DNA from: Shewanella dokdonensis
Lineage (GTDB): Bacteria > Pseudomonadota > Gammaproteobacteria > Enterobacterales > Shewanellaceae
NCBI RefSeq assembly: GCF_018394335.1
Contig: NZ_CP074572.1
Span: 3,968,001-4,032,000, forward strand
Reading direction: 5' to 3'
Length of the DNA: 64,000 nucleotides
This document shows positions 18,501 through 63,111 of the stretch, one piece after another. Under the pieces are notes generated by a model. The model ran no database searches. It had not been told where the DNA came from and saw only the letters and a list, made by a program, of their open reading frames with translations. Numbering within the stretch: position 1 is the stretch's first letter; the number at the start of each line of letters is the position of its first letter. A program made the position numbers and the translations under genes.

Positions 18501-18985
18501 GAGATATCGTGCGGCTGTATCTCAGGCATCTGGCGCTCAATGCCAGTGGCTGGCAGCGCTATAGCTTCTTGCTGGATATGGGCGACTTCCATGCGCTAGC
18601 GCCGTTACCCGCCAGCGCAGCCAAACAGCGGTTACAACTGTGGCTACAGGCGTTTTATCACGGCCAATCGCAGCCTTTGCAGTTCATGCCACAAACATCG
18701 CTGGCCTATGCTGCGAGCACGGGCATCACCCATGAAGATCGGCTGGAAGAGGCCAAAAGTGCCTGGGATGATCGCCAAGGAAAAGATGGCAATACACTGC
18801 CCGGCGAAGGCAGCGATCCGCATTATCAACGTTGCTTCCGTTTTCCTGATGATTTTAGTGAAGACAGTTTCGGCCAACAGACTCTAACGCTGTTAACGCC
18901 GTTACTGAATGACTATCACCAGGGAGATCTGCGTGATTTAGCCGAATTTATTGCCAATGGCGGTAAGGAGCAAAGCCATGACTGA
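15506..18985 (+). CDS. recC: RecC, exodeoxyribonuclease V gamma subunit
   Basis: RecC scans for Chi and holds the RecB and RecD motors together in the RecBCD recombination and repair enzyme. The 1159-residue protein has inactive helicase-like domains typical of the family; blocks that identify it are EEQILVQSPGMSTWLRLEIA, FSLSPCQHYWGD, VQHPVGFDLMAQQAPRRGDRSRRLDDRYLFLEALL and YISYVGRSQRDNSPRNPS. It starts at ATG 15506 after AGGAAT. Its stop lies inside the start region of recB (ATGACTGA), an eight-base overlap. No frameshift was noticed here. Confidence 0.97.
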   Translation: MFKLIQSNKMELLSAALADQLATPAAGQSPLTEEQILVQSPGMSTWLRLEIAKHNGIAAALNFPLPSSFVWDLCHQLLPEVPQENAFTKEAMTWKLLGLLPTLINEPVYAPLRRYLGDDSKQLPLKQFQLAARIADIFDQYLVYRPDWIAAWESEQLPFALSEEQQWQPQLWRQLRQRNQQLGLSGYHRANLHQALVAILRDDQQHLPQLPTRLFVFGISSMPPQMLSVLQALGHRLQVTVFSLSPCQHYWGDIVNPKTRARMNLAYAAKRQLPENWQDSLIVGNPLLANNGKLGRDLLDLLLELPAEDIELGDDLFYPAGDANLLQGLQQDILQMETRGQLLGPDSTLYLSLTGRRLLRTDDDSLSLRSCHSPLREVETLHDHLQWLLAREPQLSPKDVVVMMPDVAAYAPYIDAVFSHRDGQYYIPYAIADRGASQESPLISSFLQLLDINNSRFALTEVLTLLELPATLKRFALDEADLAQIRQWLELAGVRWGRSGAARQQQQVPAFEQNSWAEGLKRLLLGYALEDDSELFGGHLPVAGVEGQSAQALGKLLNFIEALDNTAKALSSEQPASVRIQQLSAFCLEFYTPENDSDTQALMAIHQAIAKLASELSNAGFNDILEQQLLLQWFRSQLEESRVGQRYLAGAVNFCTLMPMRSIPFQVVCLLGMNDGVYPRVQHPVGFDLMAQQAPRRGDRSRRLDDRYLFLEALLSARRQFYISYVGRSQRDNSPRNPSMLVAELLEYCQLTCLPETLASTKLSEPLDATALQQLESTLSGMLLKQQPLQPFDAALYQAALLKHPASAALTPSFATQWCPQPQMAATTDFLNGTPLPLSAADADTTAEQIIELQALVRFFRNPAQYFFNRSLKLDLGLDLSADDNDEPFTLNALQRYQLQLLMLQDALKHDGISSVALTERLKASGQLPNKPFDELLLGRYQQDVAPLLDRTLYLRGEQQQTLTVDLPFPELNCRLHGRLDDISAKGLISCRPGAAKGRDIVRLYLRHLALNASGWQRYSFLLDMGDFHALAPLPASAAKQRLQLWLQAFYHGQSQPLQFMPQTSLAYAASTGITHEDRLEEAKSAWDDRQGKDGNTLPGEGSDPHYQRCFRFPDDFSEDSFGQQTLTLLTPLLNDYHQGDLRDLAEFIANGGKEQSHD

Positions 18986-21900
18986 GCCCGCAATGCAGCC
19001 AGCAATCGAGGCAAAACTGCTCAACGCCATGACCTTGCCACTGCAAGGCGCCCAATTGATTGAGGCCAGTGCCGGAACCGGAAAAACCTACACTATTTCC
19101 GGTTTGTATCTGCGTTTACTCTTAGGTATAGGCACTGCTGCAGCGCTGACCTGTGAACAGATATTGGTGGTAACCTTTACCAATGCCGCCACCGAAGAAC
19201 TCCGCGAGCGTATTCGCAGCCGCATTCGCCAAGCTTACCGCGCTTGTCTTGGCTTGCCAGAAAGTGATCCCTTTATCAATGAACTGCTGGGGCAACTCTC
19301 CCACGAACAACAACCGCTGGCACTGAGCCGTTTGGATCTGGCGTTAAAGTCGTTGGATGAAGCCGCAATTTTTACCATTCATGGCTTTTGTCAGCGAGTT
19401 CTCAGCGATCTGGCATTCGAATCATCACTGCTGTTTGATGCCGAGTTTACCCTTGATGACAGTGAATATCTGCATCACGCCGTGCGTGATTTCTGGCGCG
19501 AAGCCTGTTATCCCTTGGATGGCATGTTGGCGCAGATCATCTTTGAAAAACTACCCGGGCCAGATGCGCTCCAACAGAAACTGCGGCCACTGCTGGGCAA
19601 CCGTGAGGCCATAGCCACCCCGCTGCCACAAGCTTTTGGCGAGATTGCCAACGCCCTGAAACCAGCGTTGGCAAAACTGCGCCGCCAATGGCCAGCGGCC
19701 CGGCAAACCTTACAGCAGCAACTGTTCAGTTTGTCACTGAACGGTCGCCGTTATGGCAAAAAAGACGATGATTATCCGCTACTGACCGAAGCCTTGGCAC
19801 AGCTGGATAGCTGGGTTAATTCCCCCTATGAACAGCCCCCTGCCGCAGCACTGGATAAACTGTCGCTACAGCGCCTCAGTCTCAATAAATCCAGCGCACC
19901 GCCCCCACACCTGACGAAGCGCCAGTGTTAGCGTTAATCGATAGCATTCTGACCATGCAGACACAGTTGTTACCGGCATTTTTGTGTCTGGCACGTGAGA
20001 ATATCCGGCTGCGATTTGCCGCTGAAAAAGCCCGGCGCAATATGCTGACGCCAGATGATCTACTGTCAACGCTGGCCACAGCGCTGGGGCATACAACATC
20101 CGCAAGTGTGGCGAATTCTGGCAGTGCCCAGACCTTAGCGCAGGAGATTGCCCGCCGTTTTCCGCTGGCTCTGATTGATGAATTTCAAGACACCGACCCG
20201 CTACAGTTTGCCATCTTTTCACGTATCTATGCGGCCAGCCTGACGCTGACCGCCGCAGAACTGAATACAACAGCCCGCACGGGTGGCTTACTGATGATCG
20301 GCGATCCCAAGCAAGCTATTTACGCCTTCCGGGGTGGCGATATTCACACCTATCTGGCGGCCCGCGCAGAAACTCACGGGCAATATACCCTTGGCACCAA
20401 CTATCGTTCTGCCGCAGCAATGGTCAGTGCCGTCAACAGTTTATTCCTGCGACATGGCGCCCCATTTGCCGGAGAAAATATCCCGTTTGATGCGGTAACT
20501 GTGCCGGCGGCAGCTAAACACAAACAGCTGCAGAGCCAACACGATAACCATGCGCTGCAAATCCGTTTACTGAGTGAAGATCCCACCAAGGGACTGAATA
20601 AAGACAATGGCCGCAAGCTGCTGGCGGAAGATGCGGCCGAACAGATCCTATTGCTGCTAAACACACATGCGACCATCGTCAATGGCGAGCAGCAAAAGGC
20701 ATTGCGTGCCCGCGATATTGCCGTGTTGGTGCGCGACCATGTCGAAGCCGCCACCATGAAAGATGCGCTAGCGAAGCGGCAGATTGGTGCGGTATTTCTC
20801 AGCCGCGACAGTGTCTTTGCCACGCTAGAAGCCCGCGAATTAGCGCTGATACTGCAAGCACTTGCCAATCCGCGCGATGAAATGGCACTGCGCAGTGCCA
20901 TGGCGACCCAACTGCTAGGATTAAGCATTGGTGCCATCCATGAATTTAACCAGTCCGAAGATAGCCGGGCGTTATGGCTGGAGCGCTGCGAACGCTGGCA
21001 TCAATTGTGGCTTACCCGCGGCATTATGCCCGCCATCATGCAGCTCGTGGCCGATACAGGGGTGATCCATCGGTTGTTAGCTGGCGCAAATGGCGAACGG
21101 CGGCTCACCGATCTGCGGCATTTGTGTGAGTTATTGCAGCAAAAAGCCGCCGAACTGGATGGCCCAGCGGCATTGCGCTACTGGTTTGAACAACAACTGC
21201 TAGAAGCCGCGAATGGTGAAGAGCAACAGTTGCGACTGGAGAGTGAACAAAATCTGGTACAAATCGTTACCATTCACAAGAGTAAAGGTCTGGAATATCC
21301 CGTCTGTTTGTTGCCCTTTATCAGCTTGGCGGGCAGCAACCGGACACCAGATCCGCTGCTTTATCATCAAGATCAGCAGTTATGGTGGGATCTCGACAGA
21401 TCGGAGGCTGGCAAGGAACAACAAAAACAGGAACAACTGGCCGAAGATTTACGACTGCTGTACGTGGCTCTAACGCGCCCCATTTACCGCTGTTATCTGT
21501 CTATTGCCAACCACAGCAGCATGCTAAAAAACGGCATTAAGAGCCTTTTGCCACAAACGGCCATCGGTTATCTGCTAGGACTCAACGACAGCAATCTCGA
21601 TTTTGCCATGTTGCAGCAACAGATACAGCCGCTGCTATCGGAAGCTATTTCTGTCACAGTGATCGAGCCGTCCCCCAAGAGTGGCGTGCTCACATTGCAG
21701 CAAACACCCGCCGAATTGCCCACACCGCTGACCTTGACCATGCCGCAGCAACTGCCATGGCGAGTGGGCAGCTACAGTGGGCTGGTGAAAGAAACCGGCA
21801 ACTATGATTTTCCGGCCATACCAGTTGCCGAGGCAGAACTTCCACCGCAAACGCCAGGCATGGATGATGAGCAGTTTAATCCCTTGCTCAATCAGCTAAC

Positions 21901-22687
21901 CGCCACCGAACAAACGCCAGCACCGCGTTTTCTGTTTGAAAAAGGCGCAAATGCCGGTTCTTTTATGCATCAGGTGCTGGAAGATCTGGATTTTGATGCC
22001 AGTGATAAACCCGCGGCACTGCAAGCCGTACTGCCCAATGCCATGCTGCAATATGGCATTGACCCCAGCCAGCAACCACTATTGTTGGACTGGTATCAAC
22101 AGATCCTAGCGGCACCGTTCGGTAACCCAACGCGAGATCCTGGTTTATCGCTGGAACAGTTATCCGCCCGAGCGGTGATTGCCGAAATGGAGTTTTATCT
22201 GCCGGTCAGCAAGCTGAGTTGTCAGGCGCTTAACCCATTGTTGGCGCAATATGGTTATCAAGCAGATTTTAGTTTTGAGACATTACGCGGCATGCTCAAA
22301 GGCTTTATTGACCTGACCTTTAGTTATCAAGGGCGCTGGTACATTGCTGACTATAAATCCAACCATCTGGGGGATGACTTCAGCCTCTACCATGGAGCGA
22401 ATCTGCAACAGGCAATGCTAGAGCACCATTACGATCTACAGTATCTGCTCTATACTCTGGCCCTGCATCGGTTACTGAGTAAACGGCTGGCCGATTACCA
22501 ATACCAACGTGACTTTGGCGGCTGTTACTACCTGTTTTTACGTGGCATGTCGCCCCAATATCCCGGAGCTGGCATCTATTACGACAAGCCACCACAAGCA
22601 CTTATCGAGGCACTGGATCAGCTCTTTGCCGGACAAACCGCCCCCAATACGGGTGCTAACGGCCAATTCAGTCTGGAGTTAAGCTGA
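18978..22687 (+). CDS. recB: RecB, exodeoxyribonuclease V beta subunit (one apparent frameshift)
   Basis: RecB is the 3'-5' helicase and the only nuclease of RecBCD. I choose ATG 18978 because AAGGAG sits at 18965-18970 and it overlaps the recC stop. Walker A is EASAGTGKTYTIS; motif II is IDEFQDTDPLQF; motif III/IV IGDPKQAIYAFRGGD; later IHKSKGLEYPV and LLYVALTRP. The nuclease active site is in FIDLTF and WYIADYKSNHLG near the C terminus. The frame breaks in the five-C run at 19902-19906; one more C gives SSAPPPTPDEAPVLALIDS and 1236 residues, against 1180 in E. coli. The pitrilysin gene ptrA, which separates recC and recB in E. coli, is absent. Confidence 0.95.
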
Positions 22688-24700
22688 TGCAAACCCTGTC
22701 TTTAGCTCTGCTGAGCTCATTACCCATCGCACAATTACTGCAACAGGCCGAGCAACAAGGCGCGCTCAGCGCCTTGATCGCCACTTTGCCGTGCAACTGT
22801 CGGCCATGGACGCCGAGCCACAACCTGCGCTGTTGCTGCTGTTAGCCCTGCTGTCAAAACAGTTGTCAGCGCAGCACAGCTGTTTGCCACTCGCCCATAT
22901 TGATGCCGAAAATCCGTTGGCACTAAGGCAGCTAGCAGCAGCTGAACAGCTCACCTGTGGGTTTGACTGTCCGCAACCGCAGTTAGTCACCCAACTGGAG
23001 CAACTGCTGAATCAATCATCATTAGTTTGGTTCGCTAATGCAGAGCAGACTGACGATCCCCATCATCGGCCGCTAGTTTTGCAAGATGGCCGTTTGTATC
23101 TGCGGCGATACTGGCGTTATGAACAGCAGGTGGCCAATAAACTGCGGCAACTGGCACGTGATAGTGAGATTGCCCGGCAGTTAGACAGTGATGCTGCTTT
23201 GATGCACAGCAGCGCAGCGCTACTAGACGGACTATTTCCGCTAAGCAGTCGTTCCACCATTGACTGGCAAAAAGTCGCCGCAGCCACCGCCCTCACGCGC
23301 CAACTGGCAGTGATTACCGGCGGCCCTGGCACCGGGAAAACCACAACCGTCACCAAAGTGTTGCTGCTATTGCTACAACTCTTGCCAACTTTGACTATCC
23401 GCTTGGTAGCGCCCACCGGTAAAGCGGCCGCCAGGCTCAGCGAGTCTATCAAAAGCAGCAAAGTTAGACTGCAACAACAGCTTGATGGCCCGCTTGCGCC
23501 CTTGCAGCAAGCGTTGCAGCGGATCCCTGAACAAGCGGCGACAATTCATCGCTTATTAGGCGTAATTCCGGGCGATAGCCGCTTTCGTTACCATCACGAT
23601 AATCCATTACTGCTGGATCTGCTGATTGTGGACGAAGCCTCAATGGTCGATTTACCACTTATGGCAAAGCTTTTAGATGCGCTGCCAGATAACGCACGCT
23701 TGATCCTCTTGGGCGATCAGGATCAGTTAGCCTCGGTAGAAGCTGGCGCGGTGCTGGCGGATATCTGTCATGGCTTAAAGCCGCCGCTAGCTGGCAGATG
23801 CGTTATAGCCAGAAACAAGCCGCACGCTTGAGTCAACTGTGCCAGCAACCGCTGCCAGCAACCGCTGGCGATTCGGCGCTGGGCGACAGTTTATGTATGT
23901 TACGCCATAGCCATCGCTTTCAAGATGATGCCGGTATCGGCCTGTTGGCCAATGCGGTGAATCAAGGCGACACAGCCGCCATTACGCAGATCTGGCGGCA
24001 CGGCTATCAGGAACTGCAATGGTTAGAACACAGTGATGATGGCAATGGACTCAAAGGCTTATTAGTGCAGTGTCAGCAAGGTTACGGCGTATATTTGGCG
24101 CTGATGCAACAACGTGCCGAACCGCAACAGATCCTCGCCGCCTTTAATCAGTTTCGAGTGCTATGTGCCATGCGTAGTGGAGATTCTGGCGTTGATGCAA
24201 TAAATCTAGCGATCGTCCGAGCCTTGGCAACCAAAGGCAGTTTAAAGCCCCACGGCGAATTTTATGCGGGCCGCCCGGTGATTATCCGTAGCAACGATTA
24301 CAATCTTGGGCTATTCAATGGCGACATCGGATTGATCTTGCCCGATGTGACTCAGCATAATCGCTTGATGGCTTGGTTTGAACGCGCTGATGGCAGCATG
24401 CTCAAAGTATTACCGGCGCGCTTGCCCGGCCACGATACCTGCTTTGCGATGACAGTGCACAAAAGCCAAGGCAGTGAATTCAACAGTGTTGCCTTGGTAT
24501 TACCGACCAATCCCCATGGGCCACAACTGCAATTGCTGAGTCGGGAGTTGCTGTATACCGCCATTACCCGAGCTAAACAGCAGTTTATCTGTCTTGGCAA
24601 CAGCCGCGGTTTTGCCAGTGCCAGCAGTCGTCTGACCCGCCGCGCTTCTGGCTTGGCACAACGGCTATGGGATAACCGCGAGGCTGAGCAGCAATCTTAG
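22687..24700 (+). CDS. recD: RecD, exodeoxyribonuclease V alpha subunit (two apparent frameshifts)
   Basis: RecD is the 5'-3' helicase of RecBCD. Its ATG at 22687 shares one base with the recB stop (TGATG), so translation is coupled. Walker A is ITGGPGTGKTTTVTK, Walker B IVDEASMVDLPL, followed by LLGDQDQLASVEAGAVL; the C-terminal motifs are TVHKSQGSEFNSVALVL and LLYTAITRAKQQFICLG. Two frame breaks are present: near 22774-22776 (one G short; corrected SALDRHFAVQLSAMD) and near 23777-23780 (one base short, probably A; corrected HGLKAAASWQMRYSQKQ). With both corrected the protein is 671 residues, against 608 in E. coli. Confidence 0.93.
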
Positions 24701-24876
24701 ATAAAAAATTTACCGCGATGTAACAGATTGCTGGCTTTTTCAGCGGTATCACACTTGCCGCGCAGATCGCTCTAACGCTGTGTTGCAAACTGCGCCATAA
24801 TGGCGCATCGGTGGCAAGCATAGCTGCCCGACTAAACTTATTGTCTGAGTCTATCAGGATGGTCACAGGAACAACC

Positions 24877-25893
24877 ATGACGAACGGGATCAATCTTTTA
24901 CTGTTATGTGGTGGTGGCGGTGCGGAACATGCCATTTCACTGCTATCTGCCGGATATTTTGAAAGCTGTCTTAGCCAAGTTCCCGGTATAAATTTGCTGT
25001 GGCTGGAACTGAATGGCAAGGGCCAGTACCACACCAAAGATGGTCGCAAATGTGAACTGACCAACCGCCGCGAAATACGCTTTGATGATGACAGTCCAAG
25101 CTGGCCAGTAGATTATGTTATCCCCTGCATCCATGGTTATCCTGGCGAAACCGGTGACATTCAATCCTATTTTAATCTGATCAACCTGCCCTATTTTGGC
25201 TGTGAATCTGAAGGTAGCAGTAACTGTTTTAACAAGATCACCGCCAAAATGTGGTTTACCGCGCTCGGGATCCCCAACACGCCTTATATTTTTGTCAATC
25301 AACCAGACGATGCCGCTATCGCCCGCTGCCAGCAGGCATTGCAGAACTGGGGCTCACTGTTTATTAAAGCCGCCTCACAAGGTTCATCTGTGGGGTGCTA
25401 CAAGGTGGATGATGCGGCCAAGATTGCAGCAACATTAAACGACGCCTTTCGCTATTCGCCTTATGTTGTTGTCGAAAAAACCATTCGTGCACGGGAGTTG
25501 GAAGTTGCCGTCTATGAATATCAGGGCGAAGTGATTGCCACACGTCCTGGTGAAATTGTCTGCGCAGCGAATACCTTCTACACCTACGAAGAAAAATACG
25601 CCGACAACAGCCATGCCACCACTAAGGTAGAAGCTGAGAATCTCACCGAAGCGCAGATTGCCACCATCCGCGATTATGCGGTGCGGGCGTTTAAGGGACT
25701 CAAACTGCGCCACCTGTCGCGCATCGACTTTTTCCTCAGTGATGCAGGGGAAATTCTGTTAAATGAGATCAACACCTTCCCGGGTCTGACGAAGATCTCC
25801 ATGTTCCCAAAAATGCTGGCAAACCACGGCGAAGATTTTACCGCTTACCTGTTGGATAATATTCAGCGGCAGTTGGCGAAGAAGATCGGCTAA
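24877..25893 (+). CDS. ddlA: D-alanine--D-alanine ligase
   Basis: Ddl joins two D-alanines with ATP for the peptidoglycan pentapeptide. I take ATG 24877 (after CACAGGA) as start, giving 338 residues; an upstream in-frame start at 24811 adds residues unlike the family. The family opening is [19 protein letters not shown], then [30 protein letters not shown] (serine loop), [13 protein letters not shown] and the metal-binding end [23 protein letters not shown]. One departure is GGGGAEH in place of the usual GGxSxEHEVS. The isolated location, away from the division and cell-wall cluster, fits DdlA more than DdlB. Confidence 0.92.
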
Positions 25894-26114: not shown

Positions 26115-26585
26115 TTAAAGCAACTGTTTAAAGCTGACATCAATGGGTGTCGCCCTGCTCAAGGTTTGATAGATGGGACAAAGTAACAATGCTTGCTGAC
26201 AGAAAGCCTGAAAGTCTTCAGGTTCTGGCGCTAGCAAAGCGTAAAGAGTCAATGTTATCCGGCTGAAATATGGCTTATCATCAAGCCCCTTAACCCCCAC
26301 GAGAGTCAAGGGATTTGCCAGTTGTAACTGAGCTGTACCTTCAGCTTCTTCCAGCGTAGTCCGATGTCGCTGGCACTGTTCCGCCAATGCGCTCAGTAAA
26401 CTGCTGATAATGGCACCGCCAAAATAGTCGCTACTACTGATGTTGGAGCATTCATTATCAAAGTTTACTATTTTACTGATATTGAAAGAATTTCTATCAG
26501 TAAATACTTTCACCTGTTGCTGGGGATCCATCACTGCGCGATAACGCACATCGTAGAAATGCGCCTCATAAATGTCATTAGCCAT
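26115..26585 (-). CDS. OsmC-like thiol peroxidase-fold protein
   Basis: A 156-residue protein without a signal peptide. The pattern fits the OsmC/Ohr fold: a first cysteine in the central helix (LLSALAEQC, about residue 72) and a second in the C-terminal helix start (ALLLCPIYQTL, about residue 135), followed by the usual final strand (PIDVSFKQLL). OsmC and Ohr use such a cysteine pair to reduce organic hydroperoxides; other family members act on sulfur compounds. Its start overlaps the end of the MetE-like gene by eight bases, so it is the last gene of a four-gene operon. The match is by motif only and the substrate is unknown. Confidence 0.6.
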   Translation of the reverse strand: MANDIYEAHFYDVRYRAVMDPQQQVKVFTDRNSFNISKIVNFDNECSNISSSDYFGGAIISSLLSALAEQCQRHRTTLEEAEGTAQLQLANPLTLVGVKGLDDKPYFSRITLTLYALLAPEPEDFQAFCQQALLLCPIYQTLSRATPIDVSFKQLL

Positions 26586-27759
26586 AGCGTTGTCTGAGCA
26601 CCTGAGCGGCTGCTACCATTGCGGTCACTTTCTGCTCGATGACCTGATAATGATTGACTGGCCGGTTGGCAAATGTGGCAAAACCACAATCTGGCACCAA
26701 TAATATCTGTTCTGGTGCGAGCCAACGCAGCGCTTCTTCAACCCGAGAGACAATCGCCTGCACCGACTCCACTTCATCACTGCGGGGATTTATCACTCCC
26801 AGACCGAGAGTGGTCTGTCGTGGCCATCGCTTATCTTGCAAGAGCGCCGTAAGATCTCCAGCCCGGGGAGTTGAGAACTCCAACTCTAGCAGCGGTGCGG
26901 CCACCGTGTTAAATAACTCAAGTAATGGTGAATAAGGGCCTTCTAGCAAAATACTTTCATCACGACTCCAATTACCACGACAGACATGTAACGCCGCTCG
27001 CGCGGAGCCCTTTGCCACATGCGCTAAGACGGGTTTGAGCAAGGATGCAGCAAACAATAGCTCTTCGGTCGGATCTTTGCGTTCGGACAAGGCTGCGCAC
27101 ATAAACGATCGCGGTTTTCCCTCAGTAAAAATAACCTCAGTCAATACCGGTTCATCAAACTGGATAATCTCGACTCCGAGCCGTTGCAGTGCATCAATCT
27201 CCTGCATCAAGAGCGTTACCACATCTTGCCCAAGCGCTTCTTTGCTGTCATAAGCCTGGCTGGAGAGTCCTGATAGCCACATTGAACGGGTCATCAAATA
27301 AGGGCCAGGAAGCGTAATTTTGAGTGGTCGGTTGGTATGACGCTGCATCATTTGCAGCTCCGGCACGGAAATGCCTTCAGGTCTATAACCTAACTTACCG
27401 TTACAAATCGCATTTTTTATACTGACCGCAGGAACATCTAGGGTTGTTAGTATCTGCTCAAAGGCTTTTTTATCTTCGATATAATCCAGCATTTGGCCCA
27501 TATCCATCATGGTAACGCCGGTCAACCTGTCAGCCACAAAGGATACGTAATTGTCGCGCCCCAACTCCCCACTGGTGATGATATCTACTCCCCATTGCTC
27601 CTGCAGGGCAATCACGGCCGCCGTAGCCTGTTCCACCTGCTGAGCAAAATCCATGTCAGATAACAGACCTTTACGATGCTGGCGCAAGGCGGAAAGCAGC
27701 GTTTTTGAACGGGGTAGACTGCCCATCAATGATGTTGCAAACAAGGGGAGTTCTGTCAT
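26578..27759 (-). CDS. Cobalamin-independent methionine synthase core-like protein
   Basis: This protein has only the catalytic half of MetE and lacks its N-terminal domain. The zinc-site pattern of the family is present: HVC in AALHVCRGNW, a glutamate about 25 residues later (LLELEFST), and a second cysteine in LVPDCGFATF; IQFDEPVLTE is the typical substrate loop. I choose ATG 27759 over an upstream TTG at 27768 because it starts MTELPLFATSLMGSLPRS, as such proteins do. Single-domain MetE homologues include folate-independent methionine synthases of the Mes group and thiol methyltransferases such as coenzyme M enzymes. Placement between a PhnD-like gene and an OsmC-like gene suggests it demethylates or transfers a group from a small compound; substrate unknown. 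Confidence 0.82.
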   Translation of the reverse strand: MTELPLFATSLMGSLPRSKTLLSALRQHRKGLLSDMDFAQQVEQATAAVIALQEQWGVDIITSGELGRDNYVSFVADRLTGVTMMDMGQMLDYIEDKKAFEQILTTLDVPAVSIKNAICNGKLGYRPEGISVPELQMMQRHTNRPLKITLPGPYLMTRSMWLSGLSSQAYDSKEALGQDVVTLLMQEIDALQRLGVEIIQFDEPVLTEVIFTEGKPRSFMCAALSERKDPTEELLFAASLLKPVLAHVAKGSARAALHVCRGNWSRDESILLEGPYSPLLELFNTVAAPLLELEFSTPRAGDLTALLQDKRWPRQTTLGLGVINPRSDEVESVQAIVSRVEEALRWLAPEQILLVPDCGFATFANRPVNHYQVIEQKVTAMVAAAQVLRQRYG

Positions 27760-27769
27760 AACAGCCAAC

Positions 27770-28597
27770 CTATTTCACCGGAGCATCAAAGAAATTCAGA
27801 TACTGGCAAGCTTGCTGCAACTGGGCAAAACCGCTGGTGCGACCTTCGACCCAGCATTTTAGCCCTTCCATATCCATCATGGCTTTATGATCTGGGTTGC
27901 TGTAATCCATGCGGTGTAGCACTTCATTCCAATAGGTAAACTGTTCTACTGGGAAATCTGGACGCCCAACAAAAATACAGTGGTCAAATAACGGCGTGGT
28001 GGCTAAACAGATTAATTGGGTTCCATCTACCGTGCCGTCTTTCAGCCAAGCCTGCCAGTTCAGATCCAGCGTAAATGCCGCATCAACCTCTCCGGTCATT
28101 AACGCCTTCACCGCATCGAGTTCCCCGCCAATATGGTCGCCATGCAAACCAACACCTATGTCATAACGTTTTTCAAGATAATCTTGGCCAAATGCCAGCC
28201 CATGATTATGCAAAAAATTAATCGGAATTAACCGTGCTTGCGGGGAGTCCAGCGCACCAAATCCAATCACTTTATTCTTCAAGGCGCTGATATGCTGAAT
28301 TCCGCTATTTTTTCTAACAATAAGGCAGGTTTTACGATCACTATCAGTATCACGCATTGAACCATTCAAACAACGGCCCTGACTGCGGATATAGCTGTCC
28401 ACCCAAGCTAAAGGAGAGTTCCAAGCGATGTCGATTTCACCGTCAAACAATCCATCCACTTGCGCCTTGTAATCAGGGTAAAAAACACAATTAACCGGCA
28501 GCCCCTGCTGTTTGAAAAAATCCGCGATAATCCCCCAGATAACCGTGACTTTTGGGTCATAAACAACGGCACCGATATTAATACTGTTCATATTCAT
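27770..28597 (-). CDS. PhnD/SsuA-type binding-fold protein without a signal peptide
   Basis: A 275-residue protein of the phosphonate-binding (PhnD) superfamily: the chain opens with NIGAVVYDPKVTVIWGIIADFFKQQ, followed by the ligand-site blocks GLFDGEIDIAWNSPLAWVD, DRKTCLIVRKNSGI and VKALMTGEVDAAFTLD. I choose ATG 28597 because GAGAG lies just upstream. There is no signal peptide and no lipobox, so the protein should stay in the cytoplasm, unlike transport binding proteins. No permease or ATPase gene is close. Other cytoplasmic proteins with this fold, such as THI5 and the menaquinone enzymes MqnA and MqnD, are enzymes. It lies ten bases before the MetE-like start and 53 after the acyl-CoA-dehydrogenase-like gene. 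Confidence 0.8.
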   Translation of the reverse strand: MNMNSINIGAVVYDPKVTVIWGIIADFFKQQGLPVNCVFYPDYKAQVDGLFDGEIDIAWNSPLAWVDSYIRSQGRCLNGSMRDTDSDRKTCLIVRKNSGIQHISALKNKVIGFGALDSPQARLIPINFLHNHGLAFGQDYLEKRYDIGVGLHGDHIGGELDAVKALMTGEVDAAFTLDLNWQAWLKDGTVDGTQLICLATTPLFDHCIFVGRPDFPVEQFTYWNEVLHRMDYSNPDHKAMMDMEGLKCWVEGRTSGFAQLQQACQYLNFFDAPVK

Positions 28598-28650
28598 AAA
28601 TTCTCTCAATGGGTTAGCGAAGGCATTAAGTAATAGCGTAAGGTTGGCAG

Positions 28651-29761
28651 TTAAGGGATCGGCTGATCAGTCAGCGTCTTACCTAACCAAATATTCAAGA
28701 CATCAACCCCTGGTGCCATGACTTGCCCGGCATAGGCATCACGTAAGAAACGCTCAATCGTTAACGCCTTGTTATAAGCTTTACCGCCGCCCACGCGCAT
28801 GGCTAAACGCCCGCATTCAATGGCGGATTCTGAAGCAAAAATTCGCGCAGCTAAGATCTTTTGCAGCACATCTGAGGTGGCGTTGGCGGCAGCCAGGTGA
28901 GGCTTTTGGCAGCGATCGCACGGGTATAAATATTAGCAAGATGGGTCTGTACTGTTTCAATATGGCTTAACGGCTGCGCATCTGGGTATTTACGCGATTT
29001 AGCATGTTCATTTGCCGCATGACTCAGGCTCAGGCAGACACCACTATAAACAGCGGCTAATCCGGTAACAAAGAAAGGTGCTACAACACTAAACACTTGT
29101 TCGGCACCACTTCCCGCCACACCGAGTCGATTTAACATACTAACTTGCACATTATCAAGTTTCATCGGGCAGGAAATATTCGGGCGCATGCCCATACCCT
29201 GCCAGGTATTGTTGTCAAAACTTAAACCAGCGGCACTCAATGGCACCGCCCAGTTATCGACTTTGCCATTTTCAGCGGAGGGAGCCAACACCAAGTACCA
29301 GGACGCTTGACCCGCGGAGGTCACCATACTTTTTACGCCATCCAAGATCACATGCTCAGACGCAAATTCGGCGTGAATTTGTGGATTATAAAAATGTGTT
29401 CCTGAACCTAATTCGCTATAGGCCAGCGCCAGGAACTTTCCATCATTCAGTACGTCACTGCAAATCTGTTGTTTCAGTTCATCACTGCCATAAGTCAACA
29501 CACACATCAAGGCTACATTGTGCATCATGTAGCACAGGCCAGCACTGGGGTTAGCCTCAGCAAAAGCCATACATACTTCTGCGTGCGCATCTAATCCTTG
29601 ACCCTGCCCCCCATTGCTGTGGGGATCATCATGCTGAACCAGCCGTCTTTCGCCATCTGTTTAAATGCCACTTCAGGAAATTTGGCTTCTGCATCACATT
29701 CGGCACTCGTTGGTTGTATATGCAGCGCTGCAAATTGACTCGCTTGTTCGTAGTAGGACAT
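28651..29761 (-). CDS. Acyl-CoA dehydrogenase-like flavoprotein (two apparent frameshifts)
   Basis: Reading from ATG 29761 (SYYEQASQFAALHI), the chain shows the acyl-CoA dehydrogenase fold: a helical N-terminal domain (FKQMAKDGWFSMMIPTAMGG), a middle beta domain (FLALAYSELGSGTHF, where the family usually has TEPxAGSD), and a C-terminal helical domain ending ERFLRDAYAGQVMAPGVDVLNIWLGK. Where canonical enzymes have the catalytic Glu (YEGTxxIQ) this one has MAPGVDVL, so the base is probably missing and the reaction may be a monooxygenation or other flavin chemistry. Frame breaks lie in the six-C run at 29607-29612 and near 28896; adding one base at each gives 370 residues. It is the first gene of the four-gene operon. 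Confidence 0.82.
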
Positions 29762-30184
29762 GATGATTTCCGTTATTCAGAGAAAACTAATAGTAAAGCT
29801 CAGATACTACCGCTGCCCCTAGTTCAGCATCCAGAAAATAGATAACGCATTATCATGAATATTCTGATAAATGTGATAGTAATTAATACAAAAATGACAT
29901 AGGTAGACAAAATGACTCATTTGATTTTACCTATCATGGACATATAACGGGTTCTGGAGCTTTTCTACGAACAACATTTGCTCAACGAATTGGGGCAACA
30001 CCCGTTGTTAGCCGAGCAGTGCCGCTATCGGAAACCTTGCCGGACAAGGCAATCTTAAATTTACGGATGTTGTCGTTGTGTTAACCTGTTGGCTAGCATC
30101 TCGTAGCCTATGCTTCATTCCGCTAACACAACGGCTAGTCGTCAACTTTCTAATATTACTCTCTAGTTTATGGGTGCAATCGCC
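29762..30184. promoter_or_regulatory. Divergent intergenic region, promoter of the four-gene operon
   Basis: 423 bases without a gene. The half next to the operon (about 29800-29945) is strongly AT-rich and holds an inverted repeat, TTATCA at 29850-29855 and TGATAA at 29865-29870, with nine bases between, a plausible operator. The other half holds a second inverted repeat with ten-base arms, CGTTGTGTTA at 30074-30083 and TAACACAACG at 30124-30133. No regulator gene is adjacent. No promoter hexamers were assigned with confidence. Confidence 0.4.
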
Positions 30185-30782: not shown

Positions 30783-32419
30783 TTATTTATGGAAAAACAC
30801 CAGCGTCCAAGGCAGCACATAAGCCTGCAGCACGGTGATGACGCCGATAAAGCCACAGAAAATCAGACTGTGTTTCAGCGTGAAACGGAACAGTTCAGAC
30901 TCGCGCCCCACTAACCCTGTCGCGGCACAGGCCACGGCAATGGATTGTGGGGAGATCATCTTTCCTGTCACCCCGCCGGTAGTATTCGCGGCGACCAGCA
31001 AATCTGGCGTAACCCCAATCTGATGCGCAGTGTTGGCCTGCAGGAGGCAAACAAAGCATTGGAAGAGGTATCGGAACCAGTGAGGAATACCCCCAACCAG
31101 CCTAAGAAAGGCGAGAAGAACGGGAATGCAGCGCCACTGCCCGCCAGCAGCAGCGCCAGCGTAGAAGACAGACCGGAATAGTTGGCGACAAAAGCAAACG
31201 CCAGCACAAACCCAATGGACAATATCGGGAATTTCAGCTCCACTAATGTTTCACCGAAGGTCTTGAGTGCGTCTTTAAGGGTCATTTTCAGCAAGATAAT
31301 CGAGATGGCGGCCGCAATTAAAATCGCTGAACCAACGGCACTCAATAAATTGAACTTAAAGATAGCGGCATAGGCGGTATCCTTGGCCACAATCGGCGTG
31401 GTTTTGATGACCAGATTATGCAGCCCTGGGACTTCCAGTGATACGGTAATGGCATTCAAATAGCCCGAAATCGCCTTAATGCTCCACAGCGTGACCATTA
31501 CTGTCAGAATGATAAAAGGCATCCAGGCACGGAGGATTTGTCCAGCAGAGTAGTTGGATTTAGCCGCCACACTACGAGGTTTCATTCCGGCAAAGGTAAA
31601 GATCTCTTTTGGCTGCCACACTTTGAGGAACAGCGTCAGACACAGCAAACTCACTAACGCCGATGTGATATCGGGCAACTCAGGGCCAACAAAGTTAGAG
31701 GTCAGGAATTGCGTAATGGCAAAAGAACCACCCGCCACTAACGTTGCGGGCCAGGTTTGGCGGATGCCGCGCATACCGTCCATCATGGCAATCAACCAGA
31801 AAGGCACAATAACGGATAGCAAAGGTAGCTGGCGGCCAGCGATCTGCCCGATATGATAAGGATCGAGCGAAGACACTTGCCCGGCCACAATAATCGGGAT
31901 ACCCATCGCACCAAACGCGACGGGCGCAGTGTTGGCAATCAAACACAAACCAGCGGCATATAACGGGTTAAAGCCCAAACCAACCAATAATGCGGCGGTG
32001 ATGGCGACCGGAGCCCCAAAGCCTGCCGCCCCTTCCAGAAATGCGCCGAACGAAAAGCCCACCAGCAGCATTTGTAACCGTTGATCTTCAGTAATTGAGG
32101 TGACCGAAGCGCGGATAATCTCAAACTGTCCGGTCTTAACGGTGATTTTATAAAGAAATACTGCGGTGATAATAATCCACGCGATGGGCCACAGGCCGTA
32201 AGCAAAACCATAAACGGCTGAGGCAATCGCCATGGTGACAGGCATCTGATATACCAACACGGCAACCACTAATGCTAATAACAGGGTAATTCCGCCCGCA
32301 ACGTGACCTTTTAATTTAAGCACTGTCAGTGCCAAAAAGAAAAAGACGATGGGCAATAACGCCACCAACGCTGACAGCCATAAGCTGCCTAATGGCGCAT
32401 AGGTTTGTGTCCAGGTCAT
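30783..32419 (-). CDS. lldP: L-lactate permease (one apparent frameshift)
   Basis: LldP-type carriers import L-lactate, D-lactate and glycolate with protons across the inner membrane. The chain has about 12 to 14 hydrophobic helices; family blocks are [26 protein letters not shown] near the start, [46 protein letters not shown] and [29 protein letters not shown]. The frame breaks near 31043 (two C where three are expected on the coding strand); one more C gives [24 protein letters not shown] and 545 residues, close to the 551 of E. coli. Lactate is a main carbon source for Shewanella, but no lactate dehydrogenase gene is adjacent here. Confidence 0.94.
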
Positions 32420-62822: not shown

Positions 62823-62899
<77 letters not shown>

Positions 62900-62929
62900 G
62901 TTTCTGTCTATGTGTTATATCAAAGTCGT

Positions 62930-63006
<77 letters not shown>

Positions 63007-63034
63007 ATGATACTCACACCTTAAATATTTCAGT

Positions 63035-63111
<77 letters not shown>

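Follow-up and report, generated by a model that had tools for sequence, protein, structure and literature searches.

A conserved four-gene unit of Shewanella dokdonensis and many other bacteria that may encode a folate- and cobalamin-independent methionine synthase

Introduction

What is the function of a compact four-gene unit in the genome of Shewanella dokdonensis? The unit occupies the minus strand at positions 26115 to 29761 of a 64,000-nucleotide stretch of contig NZ_CP074572.1 (positions 3,968,001 to 4,032,000), and we refer to this whole stretch as the window. The host genome has a size of 4.13 Mb. The unit encodes a flavoprotein resembling acyl-CoA dehydrogenases (ACAD-like), a PhnD-like protein with a periplasmic-binding-protein fold, a protein resembling the core of the methionine synthase MetE (MetE-core), and an OsmC-like protein. 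An earlier note had read these genes as one unit that might handle a small methylated sulfur or selenium compound, perhaps as a route to methionine. The methyl group of methionine is thought to come from methyl-folate, from corrinoid proteins, or from the still unexplained MesX. Within the open-licence PMC literature, we found no paper describing the unit. With about even confidence, we predict that it is a folate- and cobalamin-independent methionine synthase of a fifth core kind, and that the other three proteins form its donor side.

Results

The four genes form a conserved unit

To collect loci, the PhnD-like profile alone was scanned over one genome per species. The best 80 of 156 confirmed loci were taken, all of them also selected for a match to either of two DNA patterns (ID[IV]AWNSP or DSPQARLIP). 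In tblastn searches with the window proteins (E ≤ 1e-4), all four genes were present in 66 of the 80 loci. All 66 span at most 6.5 kb, and 65 have the genes on a single strand. The order acad-phnD-metE-osmC is found in 57 of them, osmC-acad-phnD-metE in six, and acad-osmC-phnD-metE in two; the last has acad inverted. Three genes were found in eight loci (six without OsmC and two without ACAD) and two genes in six, and several of these incomplete loci are contig ends. A stricter count of open reading frame (ORF) clusters, which drops the 23 loci with missing, truncated, divergent, or dispersed genes, places the four genes within 6.5 kb in 57 of the 80, with 56 on a single strand. Clustering of neighboring ORFs, which rests on a simple ORF caller, recovered ACAD in 72, PhnD in 71, MetE in 69, and OsmC in 64 of the 80 loci. 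After these four, the most common cluster is by sequence a family of ABC ATPases; its 12 genes are spread over 11 loci, at distances of 0.8 to 4.9 kb. No permease family and no sulfur gene recurs among these neighbor clusters.

The identity matrices of the four proteins are correlated (Spearman 0.71 to 0.83 over 1,596 pairs). By record titles, the 66 four-gene loci cover eleven phyla, which we take to be Bacillota, Pseudomonadota, Campylobacterota, Synergistota, Actinomycetota, Chloroflexota, Armatimonadota, Nitrospinota, Verrucomicrobiota, Acidobacteriota, and Myxococcota. Some of the host genera are presumably strict anaerobes. This grouping is not accidental; the four genes belong together as a conserved unit. 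The earlier note would have given up the idea of one functional unit if the genes did not co-occur elsewhere, and the 66 distant loci uphold it. Fusions among the four genes were sought by length in the best 120 MetE-core relatives listed, and none was found (378 to 424 amino acids). Extra ACAD copies lie directly before the unit in four loci from Gemella, Finegoldia, and Aedoeadaptatus (L040, L067, L081, and L084).

In the window, the ACAD and PhnD genes are separated by 53 bases, the PhnD and MetE genes are separated by 10 bases, and the MetE and OsmC genes overlap by 8 bases (26578 to 26585). Reading the sequence confirmed the gene set, the strand, and all three spacings given previously. 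The ACAD-like gene is broken by two frameshifts, read off the sequence near 29603 and near 28880. We found no PhnD-like orthologue in the 59 other relatives searched, 35 of them from the same genus; the best other match had 25% identity and 49.7 bits. The frameshifts and the missing orthologues could mean that the cluster is accidental or decaying in this genome. We consider this extremely improbable, because the four genes stand together in so many distant loci and because the recB and recD homologues (18951 to 24700) are also each split over two reading frames. Since these two genes are split in the same window, assembly indels are likelier than decay of the ACAD gene. The profile of a lactate permease (30968 to 32419) was matched only up to position 460 of 522. 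The frame breaks in ACAD, recB, and recD and this short permease match are likely to be indel errors of a one-contig assembly rather than gene decay. A further OsmC-family gene of the host genome (G000:C1:3305713-3306020; L003 and L004) appears split over two frames as well. Among the confirmed loci, the closest PhnD-like proteins are those of Bacillales and Neomegalonema (69 to 71% identity), and those of Haemophilus share 61 to 62%. The unit was probably acquired by transfer.

Zinc and homocysteine residues of MetE are conserved in the MetE-core protein

The MetE-core gene runs from an ATG at 27759 to a stop at 26578 on the minus strand. PF01717 spans the whole protein (101.9 bits). The folate domain is missing: PF08267 reaches only 21.3 bits against a cut-off of 27, and this match lies inside the catalytic domain. 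In an alignment of 70 rows, the homocysteine residues S433, E484, and D599 of Escherichia coli MetE align with S14, E65, and D202 of the window protein, and they are conserved in 68, 68, and 69 rows, respectively. The zinc ligands H641, C643, E665, and C726 align with H258, C260, E294, and C358 (69, 70, 70, and 70 rows). The misses are gaps, except for one Gln in place of His. By its sequence, the MetE-core protein passes three tests for a core methionine synthase, namely, the zinc ligands, the homocysteine residues, and the lack of a folate domain. The zinc-thiol methyltransferase core proposed in the earlier note is borne out, and the conservation of all seven functional residues supports its suggestion of methionine as the likely product. 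Homocysteine would be the acceptor, and methyl would be the group moved.

A residue test of the same kind was used for MesA to MesD in PMC7857596. Like MesD with MesX, as presented there, the unit has a core MetE without a folate domain, keeps the zinc and homocysteine residues, and has adjacent genes that may supply the methyl group. Unlike that pair, its partners are ACAD-, PhnD-, and OsmC-like instead of DUF1852. MesD requires oxygen, according to that paper, whereas the unit is also present in the presumed anaerobes noted above. MesX (DUF1852, PF08908) was matched in none of the 49 host genomes examined, in a search whose control was silent as well; several of these genomes are drafts of unstated completeness. 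The unit also shares the core fold and functional residues with MesA, MesB, and MesC. The same source associates MesA with methanogens and both MesB and MesC with the Wood-Ljungdahl corrinoid protein; in contrast, no gene family stands beside the present unit in more than 11 of the 80 loci.

For none of the NCBIfam methionine synthase models with a match did the MetE-core protein reach the curated cut-off; its best score was 140.6 bits against 406, and a Verrucomicrobia copy reached 168.6 bits against the same cut-off of 406. Because these scores are far under the cut-off, the protein belongs to none of the named methionine synthase groups matched. The low scores are consistent with another acceptor, in that the MetE-core protein might alkylate a different thiol amino acid or cleave a thioether, in a pathway unrelated to methionine supply. 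We regard this alternative as doubtful; the seven conserved residues speak for methionine, and the gene content of some hosts, described below, speaks for the other acceptor.

The ACAD-like protein is not an ordinary acyl-CoA dehydrogenase

The ACAD-like gene is the first of the unit and runs from an ATG at 29761 to a stop at 28651 on the minus strand. Its pieces, searched apart, matched PF02771 and PF02770 (Acyl-CoA_dh_N/M), and all three intact orthologues scanned matched all three ACAD domains. The three-domain fold is therefore common to this protein and the acyl-CoA dehydrogenases, but the catalytic residue differs. The Glu of the YEGT motif is the catalytic residue of acyl-CoA dehydrogenases. 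In alignments to butyryl- and short-chain acyl-CoA dehydrogenases, this motif reads MAPx in the ACAD-like proteins, and the last frame of the window gene reads MAPGVDV. The position of the catalytic Glu is Ala in 71 of 73 rows, with one Gly and one gap, the latter presumably the frameshifted piece from the window. Electron transfer flavoprotein (ETF) was matched in 28 of the 49 host genomes, including that of the window, and was not found in 21 (control positive in 10 of 14). The Ala in place of Glu and the 21 hosts in which ETF was not found led us to reject an ordinary acyl-CoA dehydrogenase. The flavin chemistry of the ACAD-like protein would be redox neutral or otherwise unusual, and the protein would depend on neither ETF nor O2 and would bring about no net oxidation of a CoA ester. 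Among the named families, Rv1679 comes nearest, with 242.5 bits for a Bacillus copy (L015) and 383.1 bits for a Verrucomicrobia copy (cut-off, 600). Weaker NCBIfam matches include SfnB and 3-sulfinopropanoyl-CoA desulfinase.

The PhnD-like protein has an invariant Asp-His-Cys at the ligand cap

The PhnD-like gene runs from an ATG at 28597 (with a second ATG at 28591) to a stop at 27770 on the minus strand, and it matched PF12974 with 91.5 bits. As the earlier note had stated, the protein has a PhnD fold without a leader; its first strand begins at residue 4. The note's observation that the unit contains no transporter also holds, since the ABC ATPase family stays at least 0.8 kb away in its 11 loci. 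With no leader and no transporter genes within the unit, we rejected a role as a transport component. His204 and Cys205 are present in 72 of 72 rows and in 26 of 26 proteins from a set that was not picked by DNA pattern. They belong to an invariant Asp-His-Cys (D203, H204, and C205) that sits where phosphite-binding relatives cap their ligand, and the His204-Cys205 stretch aligned to D205 of Pm_PhnD and to the capping Tyr208 of Te_PtxB. The choice of patterns makes the invariance of the two pattern stretches partly built in, but D203, H204, and C205 lie outside both.

Two residues of the ligand site of PtxB, Tyr41 and Ser116, are kept. The STS oxyanion motif reads SPQ in 72 of 72 rows, so that S116 is retained and Thr and Ser are replaced by P117 and Q118; these rows were picked with an SPQ-containing pattern, and 26 of 26 proteins not so picked also have SPQ. 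The His of the STS-H motif aligns to H150 (60 of 72 rows), beside an invariant H153. Compared with the PtxB and PhnD binding proteins, the PhnD-like protein thus lacks a leader and ABC partners in the unit, has SPQ for STS, and has Cys for the capping Tyr. We infer that it is an enzyme, with Cys205 placed over a bound small anion, and not part of a transporter.

These features bear on an alternative that takes up the idea of the earlier note, the salvage of a specific external methylated S, Se, or P oxyanion, in which the PhnD-like protein would bind the compound, the flavoprotein would cleave or activate it, and the MetE-core protein would trap the methyl group as methionine. The retained Tyr41 and Ser116 are in line with such a role, as are the weak matches of the ACAD-like protein to SfnB and 3-sulfinopropanoyl-CoA desulfinase. 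A parallel would be DszB, a desulfinase of binding-protein fold that is partnered with the ACAD-fold DszC; it was not listed in our fold comparison, a second look at Foldseek matches, and this excludes nothing. We judge oxyanion salvage to be unlikely, because no sulfur gene recurs nearby, the sole recurring transporter family is confined to 11 of 80 loci at a distance, Pro and Gln take the place of two of the three STS ligand residues, and the hosts come from very different habitats by their record titles. We saw no specific link between the unit and a methylated compound of sulfur or selenium, and this part of the earlier proposal is not supported.

The fold neighbors of the PhnD-like protein include ArrX and AioX, which raises the question of arsenic or metalloid chemistry, with the unit handling a methylated arsenical and the MetE-core protein accepting the methyl group. 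In one Rubrobacteraceae locus (L133:1924-11047), the unit follows genes for an MTAP-like phosphorylase, an ArsM-like methyltransferase, a radical SAM/SPASM protein, a GT2, and one TIGR04282 arsenosugar-type protein (136.4 bits against a cut-off of 134). However, these neighbors form no recurring cluster in the 80 loci, and in the fold comparison the scores of PtxB and HtxB equal or exceed those of ArrX and AioX. We therefore hold an arsenical substrate to be quite improbable.

The OsmC-like protein has no conserved cysteine

The OsmC-like gene runs from an ATG at 26585 to a stop at 26115 on the minus strand and matched PF02566 with 36 bits. Foldseek matches confirmed the OsmC fold for the OsmC-like proteins of the unit, which is common to OsmC and Ohr peroxidases. 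In contrast to those enzymes, no cysteine is conserved: 16 of 64 proteins have no Cys at all, the most common Cys column is occupied in 31 of 64, and the next is occupied in 8 of 64. We therefore rejected a cysteine peroxidase, and of the "cysteine-based peroxidase fold" in the earlier note, only the fold remains.

Some actinobacterial loci have an ACAD–PhnD pair with no MetE or OsmC detected

ACAD-like and substrate-binding-protein (SBP)-like genes are also adjacent in the mycobacterial Rv1679-Rv1680-Rv1681 group (NF049984, NF049985, and NF049973). The unit differs from this group in that the window SBP scores 198.5 bits against a cut-off of 400, and the Rv group has a radical SAM protein rather than MetE and OsmC. 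In a sample of 246 genomes from the actinobacterial phylum, 45 had a match and 2 were over the cut-off, and we compared ten of the best neighborhoods. Nine of them (L125 to L132 and L134) contain the ACAD–PhnD pair with no MetE or OsmC detected within the stretches fetched; the tenth, from the Rubrobacteraceae genome of L079, contains the full four-gene unit. His204-Cys205 is common to all seven pair-only loci compared.

A radical SAM protein follows the bare pair in two of the nine (L125 and L126), and the one in L126, which was scanned, is over the cut-off of the Rv1681 family. In five others (L128 to L132), a ferritin-like, diiron-type protein (family C2; motifs E, DEARH, and DExRH) stands beside the pair. 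Its weak matches are one to TusA (E 0.0066, in one of three scanned) and two to R2-like oxidase. We considered two neighbor families as hidden relatives of MetE or OsmC and rejected both, since C2 is ferritin-like by its motifs and C6 is an unrelated hydrophobic protein. The ACAD–PhnD pair may be a reusable core, with MetE and OsmC as one output.

Nine host genomes contain no other methionine synthase that we could find

We searched the 49 host genomes for genes of methionine synthesis; PF02574 was run on 28 of them, and PF05221 and PF01053 were run on 17. In nine hosts (G078, G085, G086, G089, G091, G094, G095, G097, and G100), we found no MetE N-domain of at least 300 bits, no S-methyl_trans (PF02574), and no methylenetetrahydrofolate reductase (MTHFR). 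They are from Parvimonas, Tissierellia KA00581, Fenollaria, Facklamia, Anaerococcus, Finegoldia, and Lagierella. Since no other synthase was found in the nine, the MetE-cores of this family are the only methionine-synthase-like genes found there. In G085 and G086, PF08267 also gave a second, weak match, which traces to another, interrupted copy of this MetE-core. Such second copies were seen in Parvimonas parva and Tissierellia KA00581, at a distance from the unit (L136:693-1355 and L137:523-1710), and a 113-amino-acid ORF beside the KA00581 copy is, by eye, presumably of the DsrE/YedF type. Among the nine, a full-length Cys/Met pyridoxal phosphate (PLP) enzyme was found in G078, G091, and G095, LuxS in G091 and G097, and AdoHcyase in none.

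Several observations weigh against a methionine synthase. The main one is that G085, G086, G089, G094, and G100 had no LuxS, AdoHcyase, or full-length Cys/Met PLP enzyme that we could find. Having its own methionine synthase makes sense in four of the nine genomes, and the other five have no homocysteine-forming enzyme found; these five are also the second point in favor of another acceptor. Across the 49 hosts, full MetE (an N-domain of at least 300 bits) is present in 24, including the window's own, the MetH activation domain is over the cut-off in 26, and MTHFR is present in 38. Because these enzymes are common, the unit is usually not the sole methionine route. The bare ACAD–PhnD pairs of actinobacteria indicate that the chemistry of the pair need not be methyl transfer. 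Regulatory signals point the same way: a MetJ-like box was seen in just 1 of 73 upstream regions (72 loci of relatives plus the window), and no methionine-related riboswitch reached its gathering score in eight Bacillales loci.

Upstream region and neighboring genes

The presumed promoter region of the unit (29762 to 30110, minus strand) holds a near-palindrome, GATAATGCGTTATC, at 29841 to 29854, about 80 bases before the ACAD start. Among the 73 upstream regions, it was found only in that of the window. We looked for a common operator with consensus strings that we take to be those of MetJ, FNR, CRP, Fur, PerR, CymR (half-site), cre, the S-box core, and others, and rejected the idea; beyond the single MetJ-like box, the CymR half-site occurred in 3 of 73 regions, and the remaining strings occurred in none. 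glmS and purine elements were seen elsewhere in two of the eight Bacillales loci. Directly downstream of the unit lies a convergent D-Ala-D-Ala-ligase-like gene (24811 to 25893). Three tandem tRNA genes with equal Rfam scores are at 62823 to 63108.

Discussion

Our preferred reading is that the unit makes methionine without folate or cobalamin. In this scheme, the ACAD-like and PhnD-like proteins would supply a one-carbon unit in activated form, either by making it or by carrying it. The MetE-core protein would hold homocysteine on its zinc and take up the methyl group there, and the OsmC-like protein would assist on the donor side. The unit would operate much as MesD does with MesX, except that its helpers are different ones and that, judging by its hosts, it would do so in anaerobes too.

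A more specific scheme, for which our expectations are low, is that the ACAD–PhnD pair acts as a one-carbon carrier system of a new type, in which flavin N5 of the ACAD-like protein or Cys205 of the PhnD-like protein holds the methyl unit and passes it to zinc-bound homocysteine without folate, B12, S-adenosylmethionine (SAM), ETF, or oxygen. The same pair would then be reused with a radical SAM protein (the Rv1681 family) or with a diiron-like oxidase. It is possible that the donor side of the unit is categorically new.

The spread over eleven phyla, together with the small genomes in which MetE, MetH, and MetF were not found, makes the unit matter. If our reading is true, the core methionine synthases would gain a fifth family with three proteins of its own on the donor side, and this would imply a methyl source that is common to many bacteria and so far unrecognized. 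A role would then also be found for four protein families whose present names refer to acyl-CoA dehydrogenase, phosphonate transport, folate-dependent methionine synthase, and OsmC.

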